From: Norana najaformis
Lineage: Eukaryota > Annelida > Clitellata > Crassiclitellata > Hormogastridae
Direction: 5' to 3'
Assembly (NCBI GenBank): GCA_964023275.1
Contig: OZ029915.1
Location: forward strand, 13,398,712-13,462,711
DNA length: 64,000 bases
Shown: positions 564 to 53,130 of the stretch, one piece after another
Numbering within the stretch: the stretch's first letter is position 1
Layout of the letters: each line of letters begins with the position of its first letter
Notes under the pieces: model-generated
Seen by the model: the letters and a program-made list of their open reading frames with translations, nothing else
Told to the model about the DNA's origin: nothing
Database searches by the model: none
Translations under genes and position numbers: made by a program

Positions 564-804
564 ATTCTATGCTCAAAGCAAGAGAAAACAAAATTACAAA
601 ACGCTCGACTACCATCATTTCAATTCATCCAACGGTCAGCAACAGACGTCAGATGTCGCTACAACTTTGGGCCAAACCGATGAGCCTCGCTTGCAATCCC
701 AAGTCATGCCAACGTATTCGGTTTATGTTGCAGAGACTGACCTCGTCGACCCCGTCGGCGCTGTTCTTCCAACCAGAATCGGCAACACATGCCGTCAGCT
801 GTGA
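564..804 (+). CDS. Unit 0 receptor, cytoplasmic tail exon only
   Basis: This is the last exon of a seventh member of the lectin-CUB-sushi receptor family, whose other exons lie left of the window. A pyrimidine-containing acceptor (ends TTTAG at 563) precedes codons for FYAQSKRKQNYKTLDY, and the exon ends PTYSVYV plus 24 residues before TGA at 802-804. The first base completes a split codon (phase 2), as in every other tail exon here. The basic juxtamembrane run and both tyrosine clusters (YKTLDY; PTYSVY) match the other six tails. A possible poly(A) signal AATAAA is at 1182-1187. The tail would lie in the cytoplasm; the signalling role is inferred from conserved tyrosines. Confidence 0.85.
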
Positions 805-895
805 TGTCAACGGACGTCTTCTGCTTCATGCTTAGTCATGCAAATTATTATGATTGCTAATTCTTCAGAGTAACGCTGTCTTAGTTCTGCAAGAT

Positions 896-995
896 AAAAA
901 AACTATTATCGCTTTGCCAATCAGACAATCAACAGATGAACCGTAAATTTATTAGATCTAATGTAACGTCTTCATTGTTTCCGGTGTTAATTGTT
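896..995 (+). repeat. Direct repeat, copy 1 (about 95 bp)
   Basis: This segment is repeated with few changes at 1248-1340. It runs from an A-rich start through TTTGCCAATCAG and ends GTGTTAATTGTT. It lies in the putative 3' UTR or just downstream of unit 0. The copies start about 350 bases apart. No coding potential is seen. Confidence 0.75.
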
Positions 996-1247
996 TAAGC
1001 AATGCAATAGATTAGACACATGTACAACGCAACATGTATTAATTTAATGCTAATAATTTTCAAGCCCAACAGCAGTCAGCCAAAAGCATTCAAAACTTTT
1101 ATTTCATTTGTTCATTCGGATTAATTATATAGGGCCCCTTGAGCTCCAGCTCAGCACCAGTCCATCGAGCTAAAGTTACACAATAAACCTTTGAAAATAC
1201 ATGCACAATCAATTCAAATAAGCAGCCTTCAACATATTAGCTTACAT

Positions 1248-3064: not shown

Positions 3065-6000
3065 ATGAAGAATGTTCTGTTCATAGTGACGCTTTCCATG
3101 GTGTTGCGCGAGACTTTGCCAAAAGAGCAGAACAATGAGTCAGGTAGGTTATGTGTCCTTTAGTCATATTAAGTTCGTTCATACATCTGTGTAAAAACAA
3201 TTTGTGAGCAACGAATCTTAAGCAGACACAAAGCCTACGATTCATCGCTCAGCCGATGGATATATGGCGTGTTAACAAATTTATTACTTGCTTACTTAGA
3301 TGCATCGCATGATTAGGCCTATAACTCAAGACTAAATTAAAGAAGACAGCGTTTTAAGAGGTTAAGCAGACGGTTAAATGCATTGCACCTAGATCTAACT
3401 ATAATTATTAACTCTGTCAGATAGCTAGGCAGTGCTGCATAAAGCTATTGATATGTTTTCATTACGTTCTCTGATCTATAAAACAAAGTTATCATTTTAT
3501 ACCAGAAAAATTCGGCCAACCGGGCGATTCTATTCTATTCTAATATAAAGCCACATATTATTCCCGTACTCAAAAACTACACTGGCTACCAGTCGGACGG
3601 ATAATTCAGCTTGAACGTTGTCATAATTATGAGAGGCATTACAAATTTTACATCAGCACATCTCTGTTCACTGCCAACTTCTCATACCAACAAATACCGC
3701 TCTCGATCAACGGACATTTTTTATTTCATGGTGATTTTCAAAAGAATTATGAAGCCAGAAATAATTCATGGACACTGCAGTCGGGGGAAGACAGAGGAAG
3801 AGATGGAGGGACATGATCCAACAGGACCTCAAACTACTCAAATTAAAGAGGGAGGAAACAGAAACGCATGGAGAGAAAGATTTCGTGTGGCTGACCCCTC
3901 CATAGGAATAGGGATTAATTCCAGCTAGAAGGAGAGAGAGAGACTCTTGATGTGCACCAACACGGAATTCGCTGCCCAGTTCTATCCACTCTGTTAGTTA
4001 TTTAATGCTGCAATAAAATCTATAGGCCTAAATGACAAAAAGAATGTTTAACTTTAAATGCCATCTATACTCTAGAAAGTATGTAGGCCTACCCAGTCCT
4101 GCAGAAATCCGGATTAAGATCTCCGTTTAATAAAACTTATGATGCCCTATTGTAACATGAGTGACAATTGTCATGCAGCAGAAAATCATTGTAGCCTTAG
4201 CATGACCGAAAGGATATTTTGATAGAGTTTTATAAACTATTTTCAAGGAAAGGGCAGGACAGTAATGTACATATGTTATACATAAATTTTCAGAATTGTT
4301 TGTCTTGTTTTCAGACGAATACTGTCAATCGGAATATTTTCGACCTCACTGTCTGAAGAATGAGGTCATACTCATGAAGAGCGCTTTGTATGGACGCATG
4401 CGCATTGGCAAGTGCATTTCGGAAAAAGAAATCGCAGCCCTTGGACCTCACTTTGGAGAAGATCCCCGCTACCTCGGCTGTTCAGCAGACGTCATGACCT
4501 TGTTGGACCATGAATGTTCTGGAAAACCACAATGCGAAATTCGCATTTTCGATATTTCAGAGAAAAACATTCAGCCCTGCTTTCCAGGTCTTAATGTGTT
4601 TTTACAGGCGACCTATACATGCATCAGCGGTAAGATGATTTTAACTTAATATCAGCACAACTCTAAAACTTTGGCCTTACTGTGGTTTCATGTCGCCCTT
4701 GTGCAATAGACTTGTGGTTTGCTTGCTGGGCTGTCAGCCCAAAGATACGTCAAATGTTTTGATTCCGACAGAAGCGAGAACTATGTATTCATCTTGTAAA
4801 TTCAGCTGCAAAACGAGTGCATGAATTGCGTACTAGCAATGAACCCAAGGCTAAGAAACTGAAGTGACCAACATTTTATTTCAATACTGTCTATCGGAGT
4901 TGATTAAGGTTCTTTTTCTTCCGTTTCAGCATCTCCTTCTACTCCTATCATTGTCATCAGCATCAGCAGCGTCATCGTCGCCGTCATCATCGTGATCATC
5001 TTCTTCGTCTTTTTCTTTTTAACTTACATTGATTGTTACTTACAAAGCTAAATCTTCAACCTGCTATGTATTAATTAACGTAATGCAAAGTAAATTTAGA
5101 TTCTTTGCTTTCTACTCATTTACAGTTGTAGATGAAAAGCGTTCGTGCACCGTAACAGCATCGAAAAGCCCGACTCACATAATCGATGCAACGTCTGCCT
5201 CTCAACGAATCTGCGGAACAAAATCTCAGCCGTGGATCGTCGAAGCTCCCATTGGTCAAAAAAATAAAATCACCCTGATCGATTTCAGTGCTTCTGACCG
5301 AGTATTAGGTCAAGTGATGAAAGAATGCTACAGTTATGGTTTCATTGCAGATAAGCCTGGCAAAAGAAATGTCTCCATTTGTAGCAGAGGAACAAAACGA
5401 GAGTATAGCTTACATCTATCGACTGGAAGCAGAATTGAAATATTTCTCAGCCCATCTGACCAAACAAAAACCATTAACAACGGATCGAAATTCATAGTGA
5501 AAATCGAAGGTTAACGCATATTTTGGTTTTAACACTTTTGTTGCTGTCTATTTGGGTAAATATGAATTTCTTTACATATTTATGCAACATCTTTTAAGAA
5601 TCGCCTTCAGCTCAGAAGTGCTGAAACATGGCTATCTTAGAGATATAACGAGGTGCAAATCAGACATAATAAAAGTGATTCTTCAACTGTTTCTTGCGGA
5701 AGAACGATGTCTTTCAAAGGTAGGTTGCTCAGAAGGACAGGTCAATGGCCAGGAGTGCTTGAATCGATACAATGGAGTGAGTGATAAAGGTAATTTCTGA
5801 ACCATTTATGATTTTATAAAGTGGAATAATGTCAAATCTGAAATAAAAGCAAGATACATTCATCATCGTTTGAGGCGTAAACATCAACACCTTTGTCATT
5901 TAGATCAATACAGAATATTACAAATTACATGCCATTTTTCTAGACTGCTGCAATTGCTTGGTAAGAATATCACAGATAAGTTGGCTATCTGTATGCACAT

Positions 6001-7835
6001 ATCTCTTTTTCTGAGGTTTCCATTTGCAATTTGTCTCCTACTGTACTATTTTTCTATGCCATAGCCATCGTTCATGCTTCTAATTGTCAGATGATTGCAA
6101 ATAGTAGGCCTATTCACTTCATTTAGGATGATTAGGCAAATGGTGTTCCGTTAGACTAATTTAGCTTTCTATTTATCATGATGACTGTAATTTCAAACTT
6201 TTGAAAGTGGCCATCTCTGTACAAACTTGTAGCTTTCGGATGTTCTGATATCATTCCTCCGGAGGACGCTTGGTTGAAGAGAAATGATGATACGATTCAA
6301 ATTGGTTGCTACTCCAGTCGTCAAACGTGGAAACTTAGTTGCAGTGAAGGAAAGTGGGTTGGTGTTCTGGGAAACTGTTCACAAGGTAAAAAGGCTTGCG
6401 TGAGCATGTTCTGAATGAAAGCTCAGCTATTTCAATACCCAATTCTCTGTATAGGCTATTCGCTTCAAGTGACTCCTGCTTAAAGTTTTCAATGCTCATA
6501 GCCATAGTATACCTGAATCTAAGCCTAAGTTCTGATGCAGTCTATGTGTGGTTTTAGGCTAAAGGTTTGAGGTAATGCTTTTGTCTCCATTTCAAGGCTA
6601 AATGCTTATTTTAACTTATTTGACCTAGTAATTTGCTACACGCTTTCATAAAACAATTAAGATCCTGATATTAATTTTAAAAATTCAAAAACGTACTCTT
6701 GTTATTAAATAATAAGTTATAGATGTAAGTGGTAATAGTGTTACACATGATGCAGATAACTCAGTAGGCCCAGGCCTACCTGAACTGATCGAAGATTCAA
6801 ATTCAAGGACATCTATTTCAAATGATGAGCAAGGTAATTGAGACGTTACTGATTGGTATGATATACGTGTTTTAATGGTTTGTTTGGTGTCTGGCGTTGA
6901 TTTTACAAAATCGATCTTCAGAGACTATTATTAATCAAACTTTGGTATCGATACACTGGACAACAGTGGACACAACAATCAGCATTCTGGAACTCTTTGC
7001 GGATATGATACTGTTTGATCATTATTTGTTGAATATGGGTTTATTTGATTTTGCAAAAATAAGATCAAAATGTTGAACATTCTAAACGCAGCATCCAGAT
7101 TTTCATGCAGTTGATTTTAAGCATTTTCTGTGAATTTCGGATAACTTTTGCATTTTATGACAATTGCTTCCTATGATCATTTAGACTTATTGGCATATAA
7201 GTAACCATTGTTCGTAGTTTTAAATCTAATCAATATAGCGTTTTTCAGTTATTTTGTCTTTTTCATTTTAGTGTTGGCCATTGTTGCCATATCTGGATGT
7301 ACTTTGGCAATTTGCCTGGCGATTGCCTGCGTAGGAGCCGTTTGCTTGCGCAGGTATAACATTAGCCCTGCCCCGATTTAAAAAATCCTAGCATAGGGTT
7401 AATTTCTCCACTACATTAAATTACGGAAAACCGATTAACGGAGTTCTCCAGAAGAATTAAGATTGATCCAGTCGTACAGTTTAGAGTCACCGTTGTATAA
7501 GTGAATGTCAAAAGCGATTACCCTGACCTTTACTTATCGTGAAGTGCAGAGGACCTCAGAAAAGCCAGAAAATCGCATGATTTTTTGTCATAATAATGTT
7601 ATTACAATATTAGATATTACATACTACAAACTCCCAGTTACATTATGTATATTGCGTAAAATGTGAATTCTTGTTTACCAACGTAATTTGTGACAGGTCT
7701 TACAATAGTTAATTCACAACATATATGTACAAAATAATTATTAGTTGCTAAAAATATCTAAGCCTGAACAATATTGCCGAAACAGATATTGCAAAGCACG
7801 TTGAGCGATGCAATTTCTTAATTAAGTGTAAACGT

Positions 7836-7866
<31 letters not shown>

Positions 7867-8218
7867 TGTGGCATGCTCCTCTCTGGAGCGATGCTGTAAA
7901 CGTAATAGTAGCCTAGATTGTTCGAAATACGCTATAGTTCTTAAAATACTTGGTGCGTATGTGGTTTATTTTAGATTTTATGCCCATGCAAAGAAAAAGC
8001 AAGAATACAAGACACTGAATTATCAGATCCATTCGACAAGAAGTCTGCAAACTGGTCAGCGAATGTTTCCAGGAGTCACGGCCGACGTAAATGGATACGA
8101 AGCAGATGGCATTCGGGTCATGGAACAAACGCCAACATATTCTGTCTATGCTGCAGATGGCACCTTCATTGAAAGCAATAATTCAGTCAACAGTACAAAC
8201 CAAAATGCTCAAAATTAA
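3065..8218 (+). CDS. Unit 1: lectin-CUB-sushi membrane receptor
   Basis: Type I membrane receptor, 455 residues from seven exons: 3065-3143 signal peptide; 4315-4629 SUEL/rhamnose-binding lectin domain; 5126-5509 CUB; 6233-6385 sushi-like; 6723-6833 stalk; 7272-7353 TM; 7975-8218 tail. All introns are GT-AG; ectodomain exons are phase 1-1 and the TM exon is phase 1-2. The start MKNVLFIVTLSMVL gives a short signal peptide; an upstream ATG at 3056 is closed by a stop. The lectin shows the YGR motif, the CSGKPQC core and PCFPGL near its end. The CUB has four cysteines and the ICGTKSQPWIVEAP core. The sushi-like domain has four cysteines and KWVGVLGNC. The stalk is 37 codons, against 22 in the other units. 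The tail has YKTLNY and PTYSVY. A surface recognition and signalling role is inferred; the ligand is probably a glycan. Confidence 0.88.
3560..3925 (+). mobile_element. LINE 3'-end remnants in unit 1 intron 1
   Basis: Two decayed pieces of reverse-transcriptase C-terminal coding sequence are visible. Near 3565-3600 one frame reads QKLHWLPV, a hallmark of L2/CR1-like LINEs. At about 3770-3925 frames read GRQRKRWRDMIQQDLKLL and then, shifted, NAWRERFRVADPS, the usual end of another LINE group. Stops and a frame change separate the pieces, so the element is dead. Confidence 0.6.
4930..5051 (+). CDS. Candidate alternative TM exon of unit 1
   Basis: After a strong acceptor (TTTCTTCCGTTTCAG, ending 4929) lies an open stretch that, joined in phase 1 to the lectin exon ending at 4629, reads ASPSTPIIVISISSVIVAV and continues as about 14 more mostly hydrophobic residues, then LTYIDCYLQS and a TAA at 5049-5051. 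This would give a short membrane-anchored form with lectin but no CUB, sushi-like domain or tyrosine tail. The sequence is rich in TCATC and TTC repeats, so a hydrophobic frame could arise by chance from a decayed microsatellite. The correct phase, acceptor and stop argue for a real exon. Confidence 0.4.
7838..7866. repeat. (ATC)n microsatellite
   Basis: About nine ATC units in intron 6 of unit 1. On the minus strand it reads (GAT)n, like the (ATG)n tail of the LINE fragment at 48455-48930, so it may mark the 3' end of a minus-strand LINE stub. Confidence 0.8.
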
Positions 8219-10232: not shown

Positions 10233-13200
10233 ATGACCGTTCGAGTGAAAAATTTAATGAGGATAGTGACAGTTTGGATGCTGTTGCGTGTATCACTTCC
10301 AGCAAGGATAGACAAAGACACGGGTATGAGTCAAATTGATAAATACACCCCGACTGGTTTAACTTCTCACTTTTCTTTAGCATACATCGATAAATGTTTT
10401 ATTCGGCTATTATCTGAATTTGGTGCATTATCTTCATCCAGTTATTCTACAAATTAATATTATTTTATGACACATAGGTGGCCTACTCGTTTCTTCGAGT
10501 ATAACTTGGATTGTCGCCTCTTTTATTTCGTTCTTATTGTCTGGCTTGTAGTAGTCTATATAGGTCGTTTGAGTCTTCCATCGAAATCCACGCTGTGAGC
10601 AGCCTCTTCTCGACGGCATCGACTGTCCAGCACACGACAGGGGGCTCTGGGTTTCAACCTGCCTCACCGGCTGTGGTCGGTACTAAACTAATTCCCGACA
10701 GGTCATGGACGCAGAGTTTACAATATCGTCAAATGGAGGCGCACCACTGATCTTTCATAAGACTGACGATGACGCTTCCAAATGGTTGGACACGAATCGC
10801 ATACGATAACGCAACGCGAACCAGAAACTATGGGCGGAACTACGTTGGTAGAGTGAGAACCTGCTGATTGAGATTTTATCACCGATTCGAGCACCATTTC
10901 TTTCGAAACGACTCCTATTATGCTTAATGAACTCATTTGATTTAGACTAGTGAGAAGTGTCTTCGAGAACTTTTAGAAGGTGCTGTATATGTACAATTGG
11001 TCGAGATGCATATTAACGCAAAGAAGAGCGTCCTAAACTAGACTTTAACTAGAACAAATAAGAAAGCTTTAATTTATAAGATTTGTGCTTTCCTTGTTGT
11101 TTTACTGATTTAACTACTGATGTTCTGTGACTCCAGTTGCATCAGAGGACTACTGTCTGACTGAAACCTTTCATGCGAGTTGCCTGAAGAATGAGGTTAT
11201 ATTCATGAGAAGCGCCACCTACGGACGAATGCGAGTTGGTCGTTGTGTAAAGGCTGAAGAAGTTGACGCACACAAAGCTTTAGTCGGTGATGATCCTCGT
11301 TACCTTGGCTGCTCATCGGATGTCTTACCGGTACTTGACCAAAAGTGTTCCGGAAAAACAGATTGCGAAATTCGAGTTTACGACATTCTTGATGAAAACA
11401 TCCAACCTTGCTTTCCAGGTTTAAAAATGTATCTTGAAGCCAGTTACAAATGCATCAATAGTGAGTACTCGTAACCTAAATATCTTTCTGAGTTTTGTGA
11501 CTCAATAATCATATTAACCATTTCGTTGCAGTGTTTTCGTGTCTTCAAGTGGTTTTATAATTTTAATGTTTAATATTTACTTACATAAACAGCGACATAG
11601 GCTTGGGCCTATGTATACCTATAGCAGAATTTGCGATCAGTATTAACCTTTTCCTGCACAATCTGTGATTGCTACACTATTTACCAGAAACTACAGTATC
11701 CTCTAGGTACAATAATGTTTCAATTAATTGGCTATCGTAGTAAGGTTAGCTTACAAATAAATTATTAACTCGCAATTGTTGCTTTAAAAATTGGTTGAAA
11801 GCAGTTAGGCGAACCATTTAGCGGAACACCATGTCATTTTAACTTAGCGACACCTATAGACACACACTATAAAAGAACAAACTGCAATTTGACAACACTA
11901 AGGTCAATAAATCAAGTAAAACTCAAAGGCCATTTGTTGTTAGTTGACGGAGTTGCATAAGAAATACTTGGGCCTACTTCCCAAGACTTACCATTATTCT
12001 GCAAGGTCATCTGATTGTCTTTCTCTGGTCATACCTTGGACTAGAACTGTTCTGGGTAAACGGGCTTTTTCAGTTGCTGGACCTAAATTTTGGAACTCCC
12101 TTCCTGTGTCTGTTCGTTCTGCTCAGTCGCTTTTGTCATTTCGTTCTCAACTTAAAACATACCTTTTTCAAATTGCTATCCACCGTAGGCTGCCTCTCTG
12201 TCCTGTGGACTGACCTTCTGGATATTGACCTGATTGCGGCTTGGCTATGGTGCGCCATCGATTGATGCCCTGTGCATTAGACACCGGCGCATTAGAAGTT
12301 TCTAATTATTATTATTATTATTATTATTATTACTTCATCGCTGTTTAAGATTCACTAGTAGGCCCTATAATTTTTTTATAACGCTCCACAAAAGATAAGT
12401 ATTTTTAAATTGCAAATTACCGACGCATGACCTTTACTTAACAGTTTTTGCAATTGTCTTTCAGTGGTGTATTAGCACTAGAGTAGTTTCATTTTATAAC
12501 TTTTCGGTGAATTCACGATTTATGTTCGATGAAATTATTGTATAAACTGACAGACACTTCTATAAATTGTAATTGGTTCTGAACGTTTCCATAACTGCAA
12601 CATCTAATGGGTCTGGCGTAAATCGGAGCAGTAATTCCTGCTCTCAAATACGATCGACTTCCAAAACCTCCGCTTATTGAAGAAAATAGAGACCTTTTAA
12701 TAAAACGATGCTTAATAAAACAAGGTCTGAATTGCATATAGGAATCAGCCAAGTGAATAACGCTGGGAACGATTTTCATAAACTTTATCTGGAGAAGCAT
12801 TGACTGAGCTAAGCTGCAATTCGCACTCTTTGGGTGGTTAAACGAGGCCTTTGGTTGCCATAGCGCAATTCTGAAATATTAAATATCATTTACATTTCAG
12901 TCTCATAATAACAGCTTCTGTTAACTTTGAATATAACAGTTTGTCTGTGGTTTCTCAGTTGTAGACGATCATCGATCTTGCGCTGTGACTGCTACAAAGA
13001 ACCCAAACCACATAATCGGCCACTCTGCCCATCAGAGAATTTGCGGAACAAAATCTCAGCCATGGATTGTCAATGTGCCATTTGGTCAGAAAATTAGAAT
13101 CAGCATTCTGGAATTTGCTGAATCACCTCCTGGCCAAGTCGGAGCTCAGAAGCCGTCATGCCACGGAATTATTGTGGAAAAGAACGGGAAGAAAAATGCA

Positions 13201-33400: not shown

Positions 33401-33450
33401 TTGAAGTCGATAATTCAGCTAACATTTCAAATCAGCATTCTCAAAATTGA
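27463..33450 (+). CDS. Unit 4: lectin-CUB-sushi membrane receptor
   Basis: Predicted 442 residues. Exons: 27463-27547 signal peptide; 28637-28951 lectin; 29328-29714 CUB; 30513-30665 sushi-like; 31757-31822 stalk; 32748-32829 TM; 33210-33450 tail. The frame is open further upstream, but ATG 27463 (MKNILNGLLLCTQFSFILAL) gives a normal signal peptide and matches unit 1 (MKNV). The lectin segment KEKEVAALGPLVGEDPRYLG is close to unit 1. The CUB ends KYHG where others end in IEG or FEG. The sushi-like domain has IVPPEDAWLKRN. The TM has an extra cysteine before the ladder (CGCTLAIC). The tail starts VYAKAKKKREYNTLNY, with Asn replacing Lys in the first tyrosine motif, and ends SNQHSQN, like unit 1. 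A poly(A) signal AATAAA is at 33634-33639. Confidence 0.88.
27690..28620. other. Unit 4 intron 1, repeat-derived
   Basis: No family exon is visible before the lectin exon. A 120-residue open frame on the minus strand (27705-28067) has no recognisable domain and is probably chance. At 28190-28285 the TATATAG(C/T)GC dispersed repeat recurs (AAACTTATATAGTGCTTTCT). Confidence 0.4.
30090..30126. repeat. Inverted repeat, 11-bp arms
   Basis: AGCCTAATGAA at 30090-30100 is perfectly repeated in inverted orientation at 30116-30126 (TTCATTAGGCT) with a 15-base loop, in intron 3 of unit 4. It could form a hairpin; no function is evident. Confidence 0.7.
32330..32475 (-). mobile_element. SINE family B, degraded copy
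   Basis: The plus strand reads CCAGGTCGTTACATAAAG, then, about 85 bases on, GCCGTATAGACCATC. It aligns with the better copy at 36425-36725 (GGTCGTTACACGGAATC ... CGATAGACCACCATG), whose minus strand has tRNA-like A and B boxes. It lies in intron 5 of unit 4. Confidence 0.5.
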
Positions 33451-38500: not shown

Positions 38501-41500
38501 GGTAATGAGAGAGGCTTTGGAGGGTTTTGACGGAGGAGTGCAGATAGGGGGAAGGCGGTTGACAAACTTAAGATACGCAGACGACATAGTACTAATAACA
38601 GAATCTGAGAAGGAATTACAAATACTGGTTGAAAGATTAGACAGAGCAGGAAGGAAATATGGAATGCGGATTAACACGGATAAAACAAAGGTCATGACAA
38701 CAGCAGAGACCAGGTGTCAGATCAGCATAGGTCAGGAAACAGTGGAGCAGGTGAATACTTTCATGTACTTGGGCTCGAGGATCGACAGGGACAGCGATTG
38801 TGGAGCAGAGATAAGGGTACGACTTGCAAAGGGATATGCAATGGCTGCAAATCTTAAAAAAATATGGAAAAGTCATGGCATATCACTGGTAACAAAGATG
38901 AGGCTCTTGATGACATTAGTATGGCCGGTGGCACTATACGGATGTGAGAGTTGGACTTTGAGGAAGGAGGAAGAGAGGAGGATAGAAGCATTCGAGATGA
39001 AATGTCTAAGAATGATCATGCAAATATCGTGGATGGAAAAGCGGTCAAATGAATGGGTACTGGAAGCGGCTGGAGTAGAGAGGAATCTTTTGAAGACAGT
39101 AAGGAAAAGGAAATTGATCTATTTTGGCCACATCATGAGGAAAGAGGGAACATGCATCGAGAAGGAGATAATACAAGGCACAATACCGGGAGGACGGAAA
39201 AGAGGAAGACCGAGAATAAACTGGTTGGGCAACATCAGGGCATGGACTGGGCTAACAATGGAGGAGATGCTCAGGCTGGTGGAGGACAGAGGACACTGGA
39301 GGAACATTGTGCATGATGCGGCCGAATCTCGGAACGAGGAAGGCTGAGAACGGAACGGATTGTGTGACGTTTTCTCTCAACATAATGAAATTAATAATCG
39401 CCATTGTCTGACGTTTTCTTTCGACAGAATGAAAATTATAATCGCCATTGTCTGACGTTTTCTTTAATTAAATAATAAAGTTAATAATCGCCATTGTGTG
39501 ACGTTTTCTTGAAACACAATCAAATTAATAATCGTCATAGTGTGACTTTTTTAAATTAAACAATACAGTTAATAATTATTAATGATTATAATCGCCATTG
39601 TGTGAAACACAATCAAACACAATTTCTTGAAGCACAATCAAATTAATAATCGCCATTGTCTGACGTTTTCGTTCAACAGAATAAAAATTATAATCGCCAT
39701 TGTGTGACGTTTTCTTTAATTAAACAATAAAATTAAAATCAAAATCACATTGTTGGAAGTTCTGCGTGGAATAGAATAGGTAACTCTGTGTATGATGTAC
39801 TGTTTTATGCTACGTCTTAAAACAATAGCGATTGTTTTGGATAGGTACTATTAAAATCACTCGATAGGCTTATTGATATTTAACACCTTGTAGTTGTCGA
39901 CGAGAAACGTTCGTGCGCTGTTGCTGCTTCTAAGAACGCGGTTCATATAATGAGTTCCTCTGACACCCAGAACATATGTGGAACGAAATCTCAGCCGTGG
40001 ATCATAGAAGCACCTGTTGGTCAGAAAATCAGCATCAGCCTTCTTGACTTCACTGCCTCAGATTCAGATCAAAGCAAGATGATATCATGCCGCAACTATG
40101 GCGTCATCGTCGACAAAGCTGCAAAGAGAAACTCATCGATCTGCGGAAGAACTGATCAGAGGGAGAACGCGATGTATGTGTCAAATGGAAATCTAGTTAT
40201 GATATTTCTCGATTCTGCTTCTCTTATGGATTACACTGATGTAGTCACGGGATTCTTTCTCAGGATTGAAGGTTTGAAACAGGATTCACGATTTGTTTTT
40301 AGTGGAATTACAAAAAGAAATTTGTATAAATAGATTACCATGCGTTGTACTGCACTGTGATTGACAAGATTCAATTGTTTTTGTTCTCGTCAATACTAAG
40401 TATAACCTCTAATCGTAGCGCTGGATTAAACTATAATTTTAGTTACAAGTGATACAGTAATGTATGAAAAAGTTAATTTTTTCCCAAAATACCTTATTTA
40501 CATTCAAATGTTTTAAAATGAACAAATTCCGCAAGCCTCCGAGAAAGACCACATCCATGTGTTTCAGAAACAACGTATTACAATAGAATCATGAAAAAGT
40601 ATCTGTCGCCATTGAACATAGCATAGGGCTTCAGTTTGGAAGAAAACCAATAAGCGAGCGGCGGTTGTGGTCAAGTCTGTACTCGGTGGACAAGCGACTA
40701 ACAGAAGAAAAGAATATATACGGGGCAGTAGCTTATCAGTAAGTAGTCACCCTGTTCGGCGAATTACTGAGGAAAAGCTGGTGTTTTTTGTCTTTTAGCT
40801 GTTGGGTGTTCAGATGTTATTCCGCCAGAAGACGCTTGGTTGAAAAGGAAAGATGACGCAATTGTGATTGGCTGTTATTCTAGTCGTCAAACTTGGCATC
40901 TCAGTTGTTCTGGAGGAAAATGGATCGGAGTTTTGGGAAACTGTTCTCATGGTTAAAATTTAAATTTAATACTACTTTCAACACAGTGGCACTATACGTG
41001 TACTTGACATTTTTATGATTTTTTTCGCGCATAATAAGAGATTTAAAAATAAGAAATAAAATACCTTGAACTAATTTATCACTTTGGTAAAGATAAGTCA
41101 CAGGAAACGAATGGTTTAATTTAAGTCTTTTTTTCATACCGACAGGCATCTGAAATGATTGCATTGAACAAACTGTAGAAGTATGATTTATGAACTGCAG
41201 CATATGTTGTCTAACTCAAAATACGGTAACGGTCTCGTATTCAGACAGGCACAATTTAACAAGGGGCAGCTAATCGTGCCCCAAAATTATGGGGCACCGT
41301 AGCGAAATCCCGCTCGGCTTGGCGCTACGAATGCGACGCTTTAAGCACAGCAAAGTTAAAACGCACCGAGCACTGTTGGCAGGTTAGACCCATGGAATAC
41401 CAGCCTGCAGTACCTCTTGTGTCGGTATATGAGCACCAAGGGAAGGTGGAGGATTAAAATAAGTGTCCTATTGAAGTATTGTCGCGATTGTGTTTGCTCT

Positions 41501-43114
41501 TCAAGCGCATTTTCAATCATTATTCAATCGCGGAGCCCCGTTTCTGAAGACTTTCTTTAGAGGCGTGTAAACAAGAATGTTGCATTAACGTTACGAGGCC
41601 TTGATTCTATGTATTAAGTTTTTATCAATTGTTTCCACTATGAACAGATGTTGCAGTTCAGAATTCAGCTGTAGAGTCTGAACATGAAGCTAAAATGTCG
41701 AGGGAAGAACAAGGTACTAGCGACATCACTCTGCATTACAGATTTAATTAATTCAATATCCAACAATGAATATGATATTATACCTTAAAATTACGTAATA
41801 TACTTGCTTATTATTTTTACGCGTAGACAAATTATTTAAACAATTGTCTTGTGATTTTAATAACGCGAGATCTAATCGACAGTGTAGACACTGTCCTTAC
41901 ACACTTAAACAAGTTACTTGTGCAAGATCGATCTTATAACTCAAAAGTTAATTATTAACAGGCCATTTAGGTCTGCGCTGATATCAAGTCCAAAAAGACT
42001 TAACAATTCATCCCTTGCAGGCTGTGAGACTATCATAGGATATCATCCTTAACAGTATCAATAGCCGCAATAGCATCAAACAGAGCCAAGAGCCTTATCC
42101 TTGGCGATCTTTACTCCATTAAAAAATTATGACAACGCATTGCCATAGCTTATTAGAGATAGCTCGACATATAATTAATTAATTAACATGTATATATATA
42201 TCTGTCTTTCTGTCTGTGATTGTGTATTTTTTAGTTCACTTATGATTTTATGTTGTAATATGTTGTTTAAGTTTTAGCGATGGTTGCTATTGTCGGATGC
42301 ACTCTGGCAATATGCCTGGCAATCGTCTGCATAGGAGCTGTTTGCTTACGGAAGTAAGTTCAACACAATAGCAATACATATAGGCCTAAAACAAGAATAT
42401 TTTGTTTAAATTACACATTGCTGAGCTAAGGCTTTTACCTCTAAATTTGAATCTCTTCTAACAGTCTATACCAAGACATAGTTAAGAATTACAAGCGTCT
42501 CTTGTACTGTCGCTAGTTTCAGTTACCAAAGACAAATATAGCCGATATTATCAAAGAATCATGTAGTTACCGCTTCTGGACATCAGTGAACATACTGTTT
42601 GCAGAATAAGGAGTACTTGAAAACAAAATGCATTTTGCAGACAAAATCGCATATTTAAAGCTGACTCATTATTTATTATACAAACACAAATTCGCATATT
42701 TAGTCCAGTGCTTACACCTTTTTGCTGATCGCTAGCGGTTTTCATTCTTCTGACATAAGTCCTTTGTATCTTTGGCTGCCGTCTGCCAACCCAGGTCGTT
42801 GTTGCCCTTTTCCAGCGCCTTTAGAAGGTTCTTTAAAAAGGTGATATAGAAAAAACGTTTCAAGAAATAATTGCTAAATATGCTTTTATTAAACTGTTAA
42901 ACATTTTTCCACAATACTTTGAAGATTTCATGTTAAAGCGAAGAAGAAGCAAGCATATAAGACATTGAACTACAACATCAGTGCAGCCAGAAGTCCACAC
43001 ACAAGTTCGCAACTTGTTCCAACGTATTCAGTCTTTGCTGGGCAGGATGAGTTCAACGAAACCACCGACAATAGGATCAGCTCAGACAGTACTGACCCTT
43101 GTGTGCGACTCTGA
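35589..43114 (+). CDS. Unit 5: lectin-CUB-sushi membrane receptor
   Basis: Predicted 421 residues. Exons: 35589-35670 signal peptide (MKSLLSMLLCMLLSL); 37020-37334 lectin; 39894-40271 CUB; 40799-40951 sushi-like; 41648-41713 stalk; 42272-42353 TM; 42925-43114 tail. This is the closest relative of unit 6. Its CUB exon differs from that of unit 6 at only 11 of 378 bases, 7 of them amino-acid-changing codons. The lectin has AIYGRMRIGKC and KCSGKSGC. The tail begins FHVKAKKKQAYKTLNY and, compared with unit 6, lacks 15 residues in frame before PTYSVF. It also runs past the unit 6 stop to end DPCVRL. Intron 2 holds a minisatellite split by a LINE. A second tail-like exon follows at 43350. Confidence 0.88.
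36425..36725 (-). mobile_element. SINE family B, best copy
   Basis: On the minus strand the head reads GCATGGTGGTCTATCGGTAA (A box) and, about 30 bases on, GGTTACAGGTTCGATTCC (B box), a clear tRNA-derived promoter. The body runs on to about 36425. Related pieces are at 32330-32475, 55655-55795 and 56690-56790. It lies in intron 1 of unit 5. Confidence 0.75.
37557..38217. repeat. Minisatellite, left arm (about 44-bp unit)
   Basis: About 14 units built on AATCGCCATTGTGTGACG followed by TTTTC and an A-rich half (AACACAATCAAATTA). Unit length varies around 40-46 bases, with some longer decayed units. It is in intron 2 of unit 5 and is interrupted by the LINE insert at 38218. Confidence 0.9.
38218..39359 (+). 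mobile_element. LINE insert splitting the minisatellite
   Basis: A 1.14-kb insert sits inside one repeat unit. The word TTGTGTGAC stands on both sides (38209-38217 and 39360-39368), as a target-site duplication would, although the host repeat itself contains this word. The insert is almost entirely the reverse-transcriptase frame at 38229-39347. The endonuclease part is missing and no poly(A) or microsatellite tail is seen. Confidence 0.75.
38229..39347 (+). CDS. LINE reverse transcriptase, 5'-truncated, open
   Basis: 372 codons without a stop. Residues 15-24 read FVDFKKAFDS (palm motif A), 73-87 GVRQGCVLSPSLFNI, and 116-119 YADD, the catalytic site. The C-terminal part has LIYFGHIMRKEG and GRKRGRPRINWLGNIRAW, as in endonuclease-type non-LTR retrotransposons. 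The N-terminal endonuclease and the fingers of the polymerase are absent, so the insert is 5'-truncated and could not retrotranspose on its own. The lack of stops suggests a recent insertion. It lies in the sense direction of unit 5 intron 2. Confidence 0.85.
   Translation: MQKANEHQQPLFMCFVDFKKAFDSIAHETLWTTMIEMGFPGHIIKLLSKLYKKQNARIKVAGTLSGEFRVRRGVRQGCVLSPSLFNILAERVMREALEGFDGGVQIGGRRLTNLRYADDIVLITESEKELQILVERLDRAGRKYGMRINTDKTKVMTTAETRCQISIGQETVEQVNTFMYLGSRIDRDSDCGAEIRVRLAKGYAMAANLKKIWKSHGISLVTKMRLLMTLVWPVALYGCESWTLRKEEERRIEAFEMKCLRMIMQISWMEKRSNEWVLEAAGVERNLLKTVRKRKLIYFGHIMRKEGTCIEKEIIQGTIPGGRKRGRPRINWLGNIRAWTGLTMEEMLRLVEDRGHWRNIVHDAAESRNEEG
39360..39740. repeat. Minisatellite, right arm
   Basis: About eight more units of the same repeat (ATCGCCATTGTGTGACG and ATCGCCATTGTCTGACG variants), continuing after the LINE insert to about 150 bases before the unit 5 CUB exon. 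Confidence 0.9.
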
Positions 43115-43349: not shown

Positions 43350-43521
43350 ATTCTACAGTAATTGCAGGAAGAAGCAAGAATATATGACACAACTACTACA
43401 ACGGTTTGGAAAGAAATCAAAACTTCAAAACTTGGATATACGCTCTCTGTCTAACATCGTTAGCGGTAGTTCTGTAAACGATGCGCCTCAATATGATGCC
43501 CAGCAGATGCTCATCTATTGA
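43350..43521 (+). CDS. Candidate second tail exon of unit 5
   Basis: An acceptor (CACTTTTTAG) is followed by 57 open codons ending TGA at 43519-43521. In the phase set by the TM exon it reads FYSNCRKKQEYMTQLLQRFG, with a later PQYDAQQMLIY. The start resembles FYSKIKKTQDY of unit 2, so it is homologous to the tail exons, but YKTLNY has become YMTQLL and PTYSVY has become PQYDAQ. Spliced from 42353 it would swap the tyrosine tail for one with altered motifs. It may be an alternative terminal exon or a decaying leftover. Confidence 0.55.
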
Positions 43522-44999: not shown

Positions 45000-46694
45000 C
45001 TAGTTCTTAGATTTTTTTGCCTGTCTCTTGTACAGCTGTTCGGGAGCATCTCTGCGGAGTGTCCAGCAGTAGTCAGCCAACATTGTAGTGGACCATTTTC
45101 CCTGGTACCTTTGCTCCATTGTTGCGATATCTTGATGAAAACGTTCGCCATGTTCGTCACTAACCATACCACAGTTGCCAGGGAAGAAATCCAGATGGGA
45201 ATGAAGGAAATGCATCTTCAGAGACATATTGCAGCGAAATTTCTGGTACTGCTTGAGCATGTCTTCTACTAGTTCCTTGTAGTTTTCTGCCCTAACATTC
45301 CCCAGAAAGTCTGTAGACACTAGACGAAAAGCATTCCATGCTTGTTTCGCATCACCCTCCAGCAAGTTGTTTAAGCGGTCATCTTTGAAGAGTTCTCTAA
45401 TCTGAGGACCCACAAAAACTCCCTGTTTAATCTTTGCTTCACTGAGTCGATGGAATTTTTCATGCAGGTATCGGAAAGCTGGCGAAGTGCGGTCCATGGC
45501 TTTCACGAAGTTCTTCACCAAACCTAGTTTGATGTGAAGGGGTGGTAGTAGGATTTTGTGAGCCTCGACCAGAGCTGGGTGCTGGATATTCTTCTGTCCA
45601 ACTGCCATGATTTGTCTGGGAGTCCATTCCTTCCGCACGTAGTGCAACTCTCTTGCTCGGCTATCCCACTCACACAAGAAACACATATATTTTGTATATC
45701 CTTGCTGCAGTCCCATTAAAATGGCAACTACCTTCAAATCACCACACAGGTGCCATTTGTACCTGTTATAGTCAATGGAATGCAGTAGCTGTTTTAGGTT
45801 ATCGTATGTCTCTTTCATGTGGACAGCATGCGCTAATGGAATAGATGGAAGACGGTTTCCATTGTGCAAAAGCACAGCCTTAAGACTCAATGTTGAAGAG
45901 TCTACAAAGAGTCTCCATTCTTGTGGGTCATGAGTGATCTGTAAGGCATTCATGAGGTCGTCAATATTGGAACAGAATACCAGATTACCTTCCTTCATAA
46001 AGAAAGGTTCCAACTGCTGATGGCGCTTTCTATATGAAGTAATTGTGACATCTTCTTCTAGAAGATTCCACTGTTGGAGTCTTGATCCTAGCAATTCTGC
46101 CTTGTTTTTGGATAAGTCCAAATCACGAACAAGGTCATTTAGTTCTTCCTGTGTTATTCTGTGTGGGGTTGATGATGCACCACAGTGAAAATCGGGATCA
46201 CTGCACGCTGACGGACCAGGAGAAGAACATGTCGGCTCACCCTTGTCCTCATCAGATGATGAATCAAGGAAAATATATTCTGCTGGAGGTTCTGGAATAG
46301 GAAGTCCATCACCATGTGGAACTGGTCTCAATGCTGACGGAATGTTTGGGTAGACTGTTGTCGACTTCTTTTGCTTCGTTATTCCACCGGAAAGAGGAGG
46401 AACCAAGCAGAAATAACAGTCATCTACGTGGTTGCTTTGCTCTCTCCACACCATGGGAACTGCAAACGGCATTGATGGTCTTTTGCCATTCAACCACTGT
46501 GAAAGCTGTGTTGTACATGTAGCACAGCATATATGCGGGGCCCATGGCTTGTCTTGGTCACCAACCTTGCATTCGAAGTAAGCATGATATGCCTTCTTGA
46601 CTTGATAAGTGATACTTTTCTTCTGGTTGGCAAATGTCACTTCCCCACAAATGTAACAAAAGTTGTCCACAGTATTTACGCACTTCCGAGGCAT
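45000..46694 (-). CDS. Transposon protein, probable DDE-type transposase
   Basis: 564 residues, single exon, no stops. The N-terminus has zinc-binding-like cysteine pairs (C13-x2-C16, C57-x2-C60, C93-x2-C96). An acidic Ser-rich linker covers about residues 140-170. The core has RLFVDSSTLS (D265), WHLCGDLK (D319) followed by CFLCEWD (C338, C341), LLPPLHIKLG (H387) and VSDEHGERFHQD (about 511-522). This order of acidic residues with an intervening C-x2-C and His looks like an RNase H-fold transposase, but the exact catalytic set is inference. From memory, very similar multi-copy single-exon proteins occur in many invertebrates. The terminal inverted repeats around it support a transposon origin. 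Confidence 0.8.
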   Translation of the reverse strand: MPRKCVNTVDNFCYICGEVTFANQKKSITYQVKKAYHAYFECKVGDQDKPWAPHICCATCTTQLSQWLNGKRPSMPFAVPMVWREQSNHVDDCYFCLVPPLSGGITKQKKSTTVYPNIPSALRPVPHGDGLPIPEPPAEYIFLDSSSDEDKGEPTCSSPGPSACSDPDFHCGASSTPHRITQEELNDLVRDLDLSKNKAELLGSRLQQWNLLEEDVTITSYRKRHQQLEPFFMKEGNLVFCSNIDDLMNALQITHDPQEWRLFVDSSTLSLKAVLLHNGNRLPSIPLAHAVHMKETYDNLKQLLHSIDYNRYKWHLCGDLKVVAILMGLQQGYTKYMCFLCEWDSRARELHYVRKEWTPRQIMAVGQKNIQHPALVEAHKILLPPLHIKLGLVKNFVKAMDRTSPAFRYLHEKFHRLSEAKIKQGVFVGPQIRELFKDDRLNNLLEGDAKQAWNAFRLVSTDFLGNVRAENYKELVEDMLKQYQKFRCNMSLKMHFLHSHLDFFPGNCGMVSDEHGERFHQDIATMEQRYQGKWSTTMLADYCWTLRRDAPEQLYKRQAKKSKN

Positions 46695-47055
46695 TACTGT
46701 TCTGTATTGTATCTAAATGGATAAAGTAATAATAGTTTTATAAAACAGTAACTTAAACTGTCTCGCACAAAGTCTGTAATATTGTAAATGCTCAACCGTT
46801 CCGACTCGCTTTATATAGTACACTGCTGACGTCATCTTACGTCAGCAGCCGACTGGCTGTAGTTTTACATTGCATCAGAAAATGACGTAATCAACTGTGC
46901 ATGATGTGTCCATGATGGGATTATGCAATGAGGTGGAATATTACATCATTCTAGACTTATTTAGGATATTGTCGCAGTCCTACTGCATAAATTTACATGG
47001 TGAAACATAAAAAATGAACTATATGAAATATTTTCAAAACGAGAGCCAATAAAAA

Positions 47056-48319: not shown

Positions 48320-51300
48320 ATGCTGAGTAATTCACTCGTGTGGATGCTGTTGGGGATACATGCATATGTGATTGGTGAAGTCAGGAAATCGCCAGGTAAG
48401 CTTATCTTCTATTAAATTTTCTGTTGCCTATTAGGTAATTCTCGGTTTCTATAGACTTAGACATGTGTGTTTAGCACAGCTCTGTATGCATGTGAGGCAT
48501 GGACAATCAAAAAGACGGATAAAGATAAGATATTAGGATTTGAAATGTACTGCTATAGACGAATATTACATCTGAATTGGACAATGAAGGTAAAAAATAC
48601 GGAGGTCCGAAGAAGACTGAGGATAAAAGAAGATCTAATACAAGTAATAATGAGAAGGAAATTACACTTGTTTGGACATATATGCAGGATGGATGACAAT
48701 AGAAAAATAAAAAGCTTGATGATGGGAATTATGGACGGAAATGGGAGACGAGGAAGACCTAACAGGGGGTGGACAGATGATATAAGGGATTGGTGTAAGC
48801 AAGACTTGCACGCCTTGATAAGAACAGCACAAGATCGGGAACTGTGGAGACAAGTGACAATGCATGCAGTGGACACCTACGGGCTCTCGGCCCATGGATC
48901 ATGATGATAATGATGATGATGATATACTTAGGACATGAGATTCAACTTAAAACTCCTATGTATTTAGTTTGAAATTATTTAGTTAGAGGTTTGCAGAGTG
49001 ATCCTCTCTGCGGACCAAAGACCTTAACTGAATTGAGTTCCCTTGAAAATCTTATTGCTTTTAGGGGATTATAATCTTTCAAGAACTGGTCTTTTGAACT
49101 CGCTAAATCTTGTCATATAAACGCATGTCTTCTTAATAGTGTCTACCCTTAATGGGCTAGAACTTAGTAATATTGTGTAAAATCTTTATGTTTTCTCTGA
49201 ATTTACAACATGCAGAAGAGTACTGTCAGTCGGAATACTTTCAACCTCGCTGCCTAAATAACGAAGTCATTTTTATGAGAATTGCCGTCTATGGACGCAT
49301 GCGCATTGGCAAATGTGTAAAGGCTGAAGAGGATGAAGCGCAGAAGAAGCTGGCCGATTACGATTCTCGTTTTCTCGGATGTTCAGCCGATGTTTTACCC
49401 ATACTGGATCAGAAATGTTCCGGCAAGACAAGCTGCAATGTTCGTGTCATTGAAATCTCAGACGAAAACATTCGTCCTTGCTTTCCTGGTCTAACTGTGT
49501 ACCTTGAAGCCAACTACCATTGTATCAGTAGTGAGTAATTCCCTATTCTATGAGTTTATGTATTAAGTAAAGGTACCTATTGACTCATCACTTTTCTTCT
49601 TCGGTAATAGTGTAACTGTATTACAGACTTTGAACACGATACGCTATTTTTTAAAACAGCAAAAAATATTAACTCCAGGTGCAGAAACAATTGTTCTAAT
49701 CAAAATCCTCCATTTGGTGAAAATTTAAGTTGATTTTAAAGTATTGGTACTTGATTCTCAAACTTGAAACGACGATTGCAAATGAGATGACTTTCAAAAT
49801 CACTTTTATCATTTTCTAGTTGTCGACGAGAAACGTTCGTGCGCTGTTGCTGCTTCTAAGAACGCGGTTCATATAATGAGTTCCTCTGACATCCAGAACA
49901 TATGTGGAACGAAATCTCAGCCGTGGATCATAGAAGCACCTGTTGGTCAGAAAATCAGCATCAGCCTTCTTGACTTCACTGCCTCAGATTCAGATCAAAG
50001 CAAGACGATGTCATGCCGCAACTATGGCGTCATCGTTGACAAAGCCGCAAAGAGAAACTCATCGATCTGCGGAAGAACTGATCAGAGGGAGAACGCGATG
50101 TATGTGTCAAATGGAAATCTAGTTACAATATTTCTCGAATCTGCTTCTCTTATGGATTCTACTGATGTAGTCACGGGATTCTTTCTCAAGATTGAAGGTA
50201 TGGAGCACGACTTCGGAATTATTTTCGTTGCAAAGCACTTTAATATTTTAAGTTTAACGGATTAAAGTTTCGGCCTACGTCAACCTATTGAAAGTCATTA
50301 CTGCGAATTCACTCTCCAATTTTAGGTCGAGTTGGGCCAAATTATCATTTCACTAGTCACTGATGATTTGGTTATGTAGTAACGTATTCTGTAATTTAAA
50401 TTCTACCGCTTCGTAAATATGAGAGCATTATCTTATCTAGTAGTAAAATCACCTTGGTTCGCTGAGTAGCAGAAGGAAGCATATAGTAGTTACTTACGTC
50501 CAGTGCTGTCCTGTGTCTTTTAGCCGTTGGGTGTTCAGATGTTATTCCGCCAGAAGACGCTTGGTTGAAAAGGAAAGATGATGCGATTGTGATTGGCTGC
50601 TATTCCAGTCGTCAAACTTGGCATCTCAGTTGTATTGGAGGAAAATGGATCGGAGTTCTGGGAAACTGTTCTCATGGTTGGTACTTCGATGAGGTAGATA
50701 AGCTTCAAAACTCAGTGTAATTTTGCAACAACGAATAAAAGTACGAAACTTGGTATAGCACGCTATATTAGAAATTTAAAATTTATTTTTATAAGATATA
50801 AGTACGTTGTACCAAAAATTCTTTCATAAATTATGAATAAACGTTCTTGCATTGTGCAACATTATTGTAGGGGCCTACGTTAGAATAATTTAAAAATATC
50901 TTTTCCGCCAAACGTTGCAGTGATGCTGTTTTCACGTTTTCACAGCGTCTGTGTTTAAGCGATTAACTATCTAAAATAAACTCATACAACAAAGTATAAT
51001 AAACGTTTCTAGCAAACGTTAGATCAAGAACTTTACAAATGAATAGAAACATAAGCAGAATGAGACCAAGAAAACGAATTTTTATATCTAATTGATTGAA
51101 AATGTTTAGAAGGTGATTGTTCGTAAGGAGCTACATGGGTTATTGCCTATGTAGATTGCTAGAGTTTTAAATGCACTGAAATAAATAATAATAATTAGAG
51201 AACTTCTATAGCGCCACTGTAATAATGTTCAAGACATCAGTCAATAATAATTGTGTAATTGTGAAATGAGTTATTGCCCTTGTGAATTATTAGAGTGTTA

Positions 51301-53130
51301 AATACACCGAAATAAATAATATTAAATTGAGAACTTCTATGGAGCCATTGTAATAATGCTCAATGCATCCGTCGATGGTCACTACTAAGCAAAATCGTTG
51401 TGGAAGTTAAATTATAATGCGATTCCGGTCAAAATCCAAGAAGATAATCCGATAAGACACGGGAACAGTTTACGGAGGATATGAGTCCAGGAAAAGATTA
51501 TTGCTTAGTAGAAATATGAAAGTAAACACAGACTGCAGAGCGAACGTTTGCTGAAACAGAGGTGAACGAAAATTAATGGGAAAAGGCCGCAATGAGATCA
51601 ATTACTATTTGGTATTTAGCAGCTGTTTGCATTTACTGTAGATGTTCCAGTTCAAACCTCAGCCAGAGAGCCACAATATAAGGCAAAACATTCACATGAA
51701 GAGCAAGGTAAGCTATATTTTAGGTTTATTGACTTTAATTACCATGGATTGATGTTTAGAAATTCGCATTTTGATAATAAATGAATCGAGTGTCCGATTT
51801 GAAATATGCTATACAAAAACCCATTTCTGCACAAATTGGCATTGGGTGAACAACTGTTTATTAATCAGTTCAGGTGTTTTGTCTTGGCCTGATCAGAAGA
51901 ACAAAAAGGTTTAAAAGCGTCTAAGGAGTCAGTGTCTATGTTCTCTGTATGGTGGAATCCACTGGTAACTCGACCGCTATTACATGTCCCTGTGTTGAAA
52001 TTTCCGCAGTTTTCCATGTCAAAATTTAATTAAAATCAGTTCTTAGGTTTTTCAGATTTACATTCTGTATGCTAAAGACAATCTGCTAGAAGTATTTGGT
52101 CAAACCTGCCATGAAACTTACATGTTATTAGGTGGAATTGCCTACAGATTCAGCAGCCTGTAAGCCTGATATTAACTGTTCTATATACCGGCATTAAGAC
52201 ACTTGTGAAGAATATCTTAGTAAACAATTAATCATAAACTACATTGTTATTCGCTAAATGCTTTTGCATTATAAATTTGCCAAGAACATAAAAATGATAT
52301 GATAATGTTGACTTCAATGACTTTGTCTCGTGACTTGTTTTCTTGTGAAACTGTTTCTTATGCTGTAAGGCCTGCGTGTTTATTCCTTTCCAACAAAGTA
52401 ATTTTATTTCTTTTTCTTTCTTCCACGCTAAGTTTTAGCGATGGTTGCTATTGTTGGATGTACTCTGGCGATTTGTCTGGCAATCGTCTGCATCGGCGCT
52501 GTTTGCTTACGCAGGTGAGTTAAACAAGATAACATCAACACTTTACAACACTGGTAACTGGTCTAGCAGTAGGTTTTAAAATGTATTTGGCGTTTAATTT
52601 TTCCTGTTTTACATGTTTTGTTTCTAATTGGCCTCATGCTTTTGCATTATACATGGCAACACTTCTAAAATTTGGTTGTAATAAATGAAAAATGAAAACT
52701 TTTTGCCGTTTATATGTCTTTGATTAAAAATAAATGATTTGTCAATTTCGCAATCACTCCAGCAAGGAGCTACTCCACTCAAAACATGGTAATCATTTTT
52801 GTTACTTGTTGTAAAGTAGTTGCCCTTGTCCTAATCGTCGTTTTTTAGCCGATGGGATAGGTTTAAAGTAGTCACATTAGAGTAGCCCATATGTAGAACT
52901 ACAAATACTTTCAATATTGCAGATTTCACGTTAAAGCAAAGAAGAAGCAGGCATATAAGACATTAAACTACAACATCAATACAGCTAGGAGTCAGCATAC
53001 AAACGACATAATTCCTTCCGGTGTTGCCAATGACTTCGTTGGGTTGAGTTCTCAACATGCTCCAACGTATTCAGCCTTTGCTGGACATGATGAGTTCAAC
53101 GAAACCGTCGACAATCGAATCAGTTCATAG
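48320..53130 (+). CDS. Unit 6: lectin-CUB-sushi membrane receptor
   Basis: Predicted 425 residues. Exons: 48320-48395 signal peptide (MLSNSLVWMLLGIHAYVIG); 49216-49530 lectin; 49820-50197 CUB; 50524-50676 sushi-like; 51642-51707 stalk; 52433-52514 TM; 52923-53130 tail. It is the sister of unit 5: the TM differs at nine bases, eight of them silent, while the CUB differs mostly by replacements. The lectin has 16 amino-acid differences from unit 5, around a 63-base identical core. The tail has YKTLNY but PTYSAF in place of PTYSVY, so the second cluster has lost its last tyrosine, and it ends NRISS. AATAAA at 53430-53435 may be the poly(A) signal. Intron 1 carries a LINE fragment. Confidence 0.88.
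48455..48930 (+). mobile_element. LINE 3'-end fragment with (ATG)n tail
   Basis: In intron 1 of unit 6 a frame of about 145 codons reads STALYACEAWTIKKTDKDKI ... LHLFGHICRMDD ... RRGRPNRGWTDDIRDW, the C-terminal third of a reverse transcriptase of the same broad type as 38229-39347. A run of GATGATAATGATGATGATG follows as a microsatellite tail. It is 5'-truncated. Confidence 0.8.
51136..51380. repeat. Tandem duplication, about 131-bp period
   Basis: Two adjacent copies (about 51136-51250 and 51267-51380) share TTATTGCC, TTAAATRCACNGAAATAAAT, GAACTTCTAT and TGTAATAATG. They lie in intron 4 of unit 6. The second half resembles the TATAGCGCC dispersed repeat. Confidence 0.65.

Follow-up and report, generated by a model that had tools for sequence, protein, structure and literature searches.

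A tandem cluster of putative single-pass surface receptors with a SUEL-fold domain and tyrosine-containing tails in Norana najaformis

Several described receptor systems share individual properties with the gene cluster treated here. Latrophilins (ADGRL) are seven-pass receptors with further domains, and EVA-1/EVA1C is a single-pass membrane protein that carries two SUEL domains, without CUB-like or four-cysteine parts. CLEC-2 and Dectin-1 combine a C-type fold and a type II membrane orientation with a hemi-immunoreceptor tyrosine-based activation motif (hemITAM). The Fester co-receptors (FcoR) of Botryllus schlosseri are 520–610 amino acids long and have the domain order V-type immunoglobulin (Ig), sushi and two C2-type Ig; their Y-x-x-I/L/V core is described as being of unknown function (PMC12065747). 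Here, we analyse a 64,000-base stretch of DNA (hereafter the window) from the annelid Norana najaformis (GCA_964023275.1, contig OZ029915.1, positions 13,398,712–13,462,711, forward strand), which contains, at 564–53,130 on the + strand, a receptor-gene cluster made up of six complete genes and a single tail exon.

The encoded proteins share one layout, in which a signal peptide is followed by a SUEL-fold domain, a CUB-like part, a short four-cysteine module, a variable stalk, an uncharged transmembrane helix, and a tail of 63–81 residues. With moderate confidence, we interpret the cluster as encoding type I single-pass surface receptors of an old tandem family, which are predicted to signal or to be sorted via a YxxL core and some of whose exons would have been exchanged between copies by conversion. 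In a broader sense, the proteins are very probably surface recognition receptors of some kind, and recognition of non-self can be suggested only tentatively as their role.

Gene models and encoded domains

All six complete copies consist of seven exons, their introns are bounded by GT and AG throughout (36/36), and splicing leaves a single open frame in each. These splice models confirm what the sequence-only reading had proposed, namely seven copies in the same orientation, six of them complete, with a shared seven-exon plan and open spliced frames. The seventh copy is known by its last exon (564–804), and the remainder of this gene would lie left of the window. The copies, labelled c0 to c6, are the following:

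564–804, + strand: c0, last (tail) exon of the seventh copy; AG acceptor at 562–563, open to the stop codon at 802–804, with YKTLDY and PTYSVY
3065–8218, + strand: c1, complete, 457 amino acids; exons 3065–3143, 4315–4629, 5126–5509, 6233–6385, 6717–6833, 7272–7353, 7975–8218; splice model, one open frame
10257–17477, + strand: c2, complete, 432 amino acids; exons 10257–10323, 11146–11460, 12959–13336, 14044–14196, 14447–14512, 16432–16513, 17240–17477; splice model
20539–26273, + strand: c3, complete, 434 amino acids; exons 20539–20623, 22271–22585, 22949–23338, 23841–23993, 24515–24580, 25723–25804, 26060–26273; splice model
27463–33450, + strand: c4, complete, 442 amino acids; exons 27463–27547, 28637–28951, 29328–29714, 30513–30665, 31757–31822, 32748–32829, 33210–33450; splice model
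35589–43114, + strand: c5, complete, 421 amino acids; exons 35589–35670, 37020–37334, 39894–40271, 40799–40951, 41648–41713, 42272–42353, 42925–43114; splice model
48320–53130, + strand: c6, complete, 425 amino acids; exons 48320–48395, 49216–49530, 49820–50197, 50524–50676, 51642–51707, 52433–52514, 52923–53130; splice model

The intron phases of the complete genes are 1-1-1-1-1-2, and the three outer domains are therefore phase-1 exons. The shortest intron measures 250 bases and the longest 2,559, and neighbouring complete genes are separated by five gaps of 1,189–5,205 bases. The first exons of c1–c4, picked by a signal-like frame, donor, and phase, are the weakest part of the gene models. 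Whereas the protein lengths of c4, c5, and c6 agree with those proposed earlier (442, 421, and 425 residues), the earlier values for c1, c2, and c3 (455, 443, and 439) differ from ours by 2, 11, and 5 residues, respectively, probably because first-exon starts and exon limits were set differently. The G+C content of the window is 38%, and a comparison with Rfam gave no match at gathering thresholds.

The exons of c5 serve as examples of the encoded parts:

37020–37334, + strand: exon 2, SUEL-fold domain; Pfam SUEL in 6/6 copies, all of which share eight invariant cysteines
39894–40271, + strand: exon 3, tentative CUB-like domain; Pfam CUB E-value 0.0051, 97% identical to c6 49820–50197
40799–40951, + strand: exon 4, short domain with four cysteines, better conserved than the other outer parts; mean column identity 89%, structure model with a predicted local distance difference test (pLDDT) score of 84.5
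42272–42353, + strand: exon 6, transmembrane segment with no charged residue inside (translation, by eye)
42925–43114, + strand: exon 7, cytoplasmic tail with YKTLNY and PTYS (splice model, motif alignment)
43350–43521, + strand: candidate second, alternative last exon behind c5; AG acceptor, same acceptor phase, open to a stop codon

The previously proposed SUEL lectin-type domain was recovered by Pfam in all six copies (best E-value 7.3e-7), although the scores shown (26.4 bits for c1, 31.1 for the exon consensus, and 26.9 for the joined consensus) fall under the cut-off of 31.4 bits. When compared to PDB sequences, the exon 2 profile matched CSL2 (E-value 1.7e-5), followed by three latrophilin-type rhamnose-binding lectin (RBL) domains (E-value 6.9e-5 and weaker). 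Besides the eight cysteines, the YGR motif is invariant in all six copies; eight cysteines are what the four disulphides of an RBL domain require (PMC3269628). The same source names Glu7, Tyr27, Lys86, and Gly83, with Asn74 and Asp79, as the residues of CSL3 that contact sugar. In the alignments, the contact Asp is replaced by Gln, His, Arg, or Tyr and the contact Lys by Val or Met in all six copies, and the DPC and KYL motifs are altered. The contact Tyr (of YGR) is kept, as is the Gly by alignment, and the position of the Asn is ambiguous. The LPHN2 alignment, the one that matches the cysteines, has Gln or Leu in place of the contact Glu, which is probably lost too. Because the Asp, Lys, and probably Glu contacts are lost, ordinary rhamnose or galactose binding is doubtful, and a canonical site for these sugars in the exon 2 domain is unlikely. 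By sequence, exon 2 is thus assigned to the SUEL fold, without the full set of DPC/KYL motifs and contacts of a sugar-binding RBL.

The CUB-like exon 3 contains four invariant cysteines. ADGRG6 was the nearest PDB sequence for both the exon profile and c5 (E-values 0.2–0.25), aligned at residues 27–98, which we take to be its CUB domain, and the c4 exon gave unrelated PDB matches only. In exon 4, C3, C25, C36, W41, and C48 are invariant in all six copies, and the structure model of 50 residues has four strands. In sushi/CCP domains, a Trp lies between the last two of four cysteines, and this pattern is present in exon 4 of every complete copy.

A single hydrophobic segment, identified by eye on the translation of exon 6, lies ahead of the tail and the stop codon; as no charged residue is located inside this helix, no charge-paired adaptor would be expected. 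The tails have Y[KN]TL[ND]Y and PTYS fixed in all seven copies, with the remaining sequence not constant and the distal part varying in both length and sequence. The second Tyr of YSVY is kept in five of the seven and replaced by Phe in c5 and c6. YKTL or YNTL, located some twelve residues in from the membrane, fits YxxPhi in every tail, and a further YxxPhi (YHHF, YSKI, YSVF, or YSAF) is found in four (c0, c2, c5, and c6). The first residues encoded by the candidate alternative last exon behind c5 resemble the other tails (tblastn E-value 0.045 to c1), but this tail differs in having YMTQ for YKTL and no YxxPhi in the motif scan; no counterpart was seen behind the other copies in the cluster.

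Selection and exchange of exons among the copies

The cluster genes are maintained under purifying selection, with ratios of nonsynonymous to synonymous substitution rates (dN/dS) of 0.16–0.30 for the whole protein in all 15 pairs of complete copies. Across these pairs, mean difference fractions at codon positions 1/2/3 were 0.21/0.16/0.50 in the SUEL exon, 0.31/0.26/0.51 in the CUB-like exon, 0.13/0.07/0.42 in exon 4, 0.13/0.09/0.41 in the transmembrane exon, and 0.33/0.33/0.52 in the tail exon, and the third-position excess was slight in the signal (0.60/0.42/0.60) and stalk (0.46/0.41/0.58) exons. Codon columns gapped in either copy were excluded from these counts as well as from the dN/dS and conversion counts, and infinite dS values, which arise in saturated short exons, were retained in medians. 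DNA similarity between copies ends at the exons: 60 of the 88 BLASTN matches (E-value up to 1e-3, counted within about 3,000–53,200, with matches outside left out) connect exon to exon, and only two of the other 28 link places more than 4 kb apart.

Mean dN was highest in the signal (0.94) and stalk (0.69) exons, followed by the tail (0.43), CUB-like (0.36), SUEL (0.22), four-cysteine (0.11), and transmembrane (0.09) exons. The sequence-only reading had set a diverging ectodomain against a constant signalling end, a contrast that runs the other way in the lectin domain and fails in the CUB-like exon, as the tail ranks above all three outer domains. The immune or allorecognition role had been derived from this contrast and loses that basis, whereas there is good support for describing the genes as a cluster coding for single-pass receptors whose tails contain tyrosines.

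In an unrooted protein tree, c3 groups with c5 and c6 (support 0.989), with c2 adjoining and c1 left with c4, a pattern that might follow from block duplication. The copies probably derive from old duplication (c1 with c4; c3 with c5 and c6), with some exons swapped by gene conversion. In the CUB-like exons of c5 and c6 (39894–40271 vs. 49820–50197), 6 of 126 third positions differ compared to 73 of 284 in the remaining exons (Fisher p = 1.2e-7), exon 4 of the same pair is also low (5/51 vs. 48/186 in exons 2, 6, and 7; p = 0.014), and the transmembrane exons of c1 and c4 (7272–7353 vs. 32748–32829) differ at 3 of 28 third positions compared to 173 of 361 in exons 2, 3, 4, and 7 (p = 1e-4), all p-values being uncorrected and the pairs and exons chosen after the data had been seen. 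Intron flanks were compared for exon 3 of c5 and c6, where the 120 intron bases on each side are only 40–73% identical and unalignable. The simplest reading of these patterns would be exon-limited gene conversion between copies. For c5 and c6, the converted sequence was possibly copied from messenger RNA (mRNA) or its complementary DNA, because two adjacent exons are alike and the intron between them is not.

Other elements were observed in and around the genes. Within intron 2 of c5, the stretch 37558–39740 contains a reverse-transcriptase frame (38217–39344; Pfam RVT_1, E-value 1.2e-31) with 44-base repeat arrays on both sides. Intron 1 of c6 contains an open frame (48461–48901) that has no Pfam match and by eye resembles a reverse transcriptase at its C-terminal end. 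Between c5 and c6, an uninterrupted frame of 570 codons on the − strand (45003–46712) has no Pfam match up to an E-value of 0.1 and looks, as an impression only, like a transposon gene. Right of the cluster, a long diverged direct repeat (59192–60629 and 60876–62970) shows about 68–72% identity in three pieces. A frame at 63572–63985 with a C-type lectin match (E-value 0.00028; 22 bits vs. a cut-off of 22.6) probably belongs to another gene, at the right edge of the window.

Proposed mode of action and alternative roles

If the cluster encodes type I receptors as proposed, the ligand of the SUEL-fold and CUB-like domains may be a protein or some uncommon glycan and not free rhamnose or galactose, given the loss of the side chains that contact sugar. 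The four-cysteine module, which is nearly invariant, and the transmembrane helix might give the copies a common geometry or hold a partner that they share. The receptor could be clustered by its ligand, and the membrane-near Y[KN]TL core could be phosphorylated and bound by an SH2 protein, or be read by clathrin adaptors for uptake.

A number of results weigh against this interpretation. The alignments behind the proposed loss of the sugar site are of low identity. That with CSL2, shifted by one residue at the cysteine, pairs an invariant Glu of the family with the Glu of CSL2, and in c2 a Lys is found one position ahead of the lost contact Lys. The CUB assignment made earlier retains a weak Pfam match in two of the six copies (best in c5, 17.6 bits vs. 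a cut-off of 21.4), but the exon consensus has no match to Pfam CUB, and the structure model, with a pLDDT of 41, is uninformative. The sushi assignment was not confirmed: Pfam sushi was found in none of the six copies, exon 4 has no Pfam match of any kind in these copies, and a comparison to PDB sequences gave one unrelated match (E-value 0.52). A Foldseek search with the exon 4 model had no match at an E-value of 0.001, and none of the best 50 of 194 matches was named sushi or complement, although the small size of the domain weakens this test. Support thus comes from the four cysteines and the Trp, and "sushi-like" refers to the cysteine pattern only.

On the same side stand the tails, in which a scan with consensus patterns for the immunoreceptor tyrosine-based inhibitory motif (ITIM), the corresponding activation motif (ITAM, gap of 6–12), and the hemITAM found none in the seven copies, so that signalling remains predicted only. 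Residue −2 of YxTL is Gln in six tails and Arg in one, and the acidic-Gly context of a hemITAM is absent. In c2 alone, a membrane-adjacent YSKI is separated from YKTL by five residues, a spacing one residue below that usual for an ITAM. As for selection, dS exceeds 1 in 14 of the 15 pairs, and positive selection at single sites could therefore be missed; two of the 15 pairs have dN above dS in the signal exon, and two in the stalk exon, both exons being short.

Non-self recognition, uptake, and adhesion are about equally likely as roles. In an immune or allorecognition cluster, germline copies would differ in the markers of non-self or self to which they respond and would signal by the tyrosine tail. 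The tandem arrangement, the divergence between copies of the SUEL and CUB-like exons (mean identities of 66% and 53%, respectively), the exon-limited conversion, and the fixed YxxL core are consistent with this role, as is the presence of a Y-x-x-I/L/V core in Botryllus FcoR receptors (PMC12065747). We nevertheless consider it doubtful, as selection is purifying overall with an outer lectin domain better conserved than the tail, the tails have no ITIM, ITAM, or hemITAM (with the YSKI and YKTL of c2 just too close for an ITAM), and the domain order is unlike the V-type Ig, sushi, and two C2-type Ig given for FcoR (PMC12065747).

An equally tentative alternative is that of scavenger or uptake receptors, in which the fixed YKTL would act as a YxxPhi signal for clathrin adaptors and the ligand would be debris, mucus, egg-coat, or microbial material. 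The YxxPhi fit of YKTL/YNTL in 7/7 tails, the further YxxPhi motifs in 4/7, and the distal tail, variable in length and sequence, all agree with such a function, but a single YxxPhi leaves the fixed second Tyr ([ND]Y) and the PTYS block unexplained. Adhesion or developmental receptors, used like latrophilin or EVA-1 with the SUEL fold binding a protein partner, are only slightly less likely. In favour of such receptors, the three profile matches after CSL2 are latrophilin-type RBL domains, sugar-contact residues are lost, and the membrane-near module is strongly constrained, but seven tandem copies are in our judgement many for such a role, and the single hydrophobic segment leaves no room for a seven-pass part.

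A more elaborate proposal, which we regard as improbable, envisages an undescribed class of polymorphic recognition receptors with a SUEL fold that lost its sugar pocket and became a protein-recognition module, diversification of the tandem copies by exon-wise conversion (possibly from mRNA), and alternative last exons that would switch between a YxxL and a YxxL-free tail. A decaying pseudogene array without function, to which the reverse-transcriptase frame inside the c5 intron might point, is extremely improbable and was rejected on the selection pattern, with open frames in 6/6 copies, canonical splice sites in 36/36 introns, and dN/dS far below 1.

Should the receptors form a recognition family, they would add a SUEL-based architecture to the receptor clusters of animals without antibodies, and the exon exchanges between c5 and c6 and between c1 and c4 would provide a tangible starting point for studying how the copies change. 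Were they ordinary uptake or adhesion receptors instead, they would still exemplify a SUEL fold kept under constraint after the loss of its sugar contacts and caution against calling every SUEL match a lectin.

Comparison with described systems

A literature search for the order SUEL, CUB-like, four-cysteine, transmembrane, and tyrosine tail found no named class among the matches listed, which is not evidence of absence. Degenerate-pattern searches returned 49 stretches matching the SUEL exon and 33 matching the four-cysteine exon in IMG/VR, and 18 matching the SUEL exon in GTDB genomes; none was confirmed in either, as expected, since neither is an animal collection.

Similar to the FcoR of B. 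schlosseri, the cluster is multigenic and predicted to encode type I proteins with a Y-x-x-I/L/V tail core, but SUEL, CUB-like, and four-cysteine parts in 421–457 amino acids take the place of the V-type Ig, sushi, and two C2-type Ig in 520–610 amino acids (PMC12065747). As the Pfam matches of the six copies include no Ig family and the domain order differs from that described (PMC12065747), membership in FcoR was rejected.

With latrophilins, the proteins have in common one N-terminal RBL/SUEL domain and the profile matches. They differ from these in being single-pass with a short tail and in the replacement of the contact Lys and probably also the contact Glu; membership was rejected because a single hydrophobic segment does not make a seven-pass adhesion G protein-coupled receptor. 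CLEC-2 and Dectin-1, as generally described, resemble the cluster proteins in a lectin-type fold, a single membrane pass, and one YxxL, but have a C-type fold and type II orientation, and the acidic-Gly context of their hemITAM is absent from the cluster tails. The soluble rhamnose-binding lectins CSL2 and CSL3 share the SUEL-type sequence, the eight cysteines, and YGR, in contrast to which the cluster proteins are predicted to be membrane-bound and have altered DPC and KYL motifs. Finally, EVA-1/EVA1C, by its common description, is likewise a SUEL-domain single-pass membrane protein, with two SUEL domains and no CUB-like or four-cysteine parts, whereas the proteins of the N. najaformis cluster have one SUEL-fold domain together with such parts.

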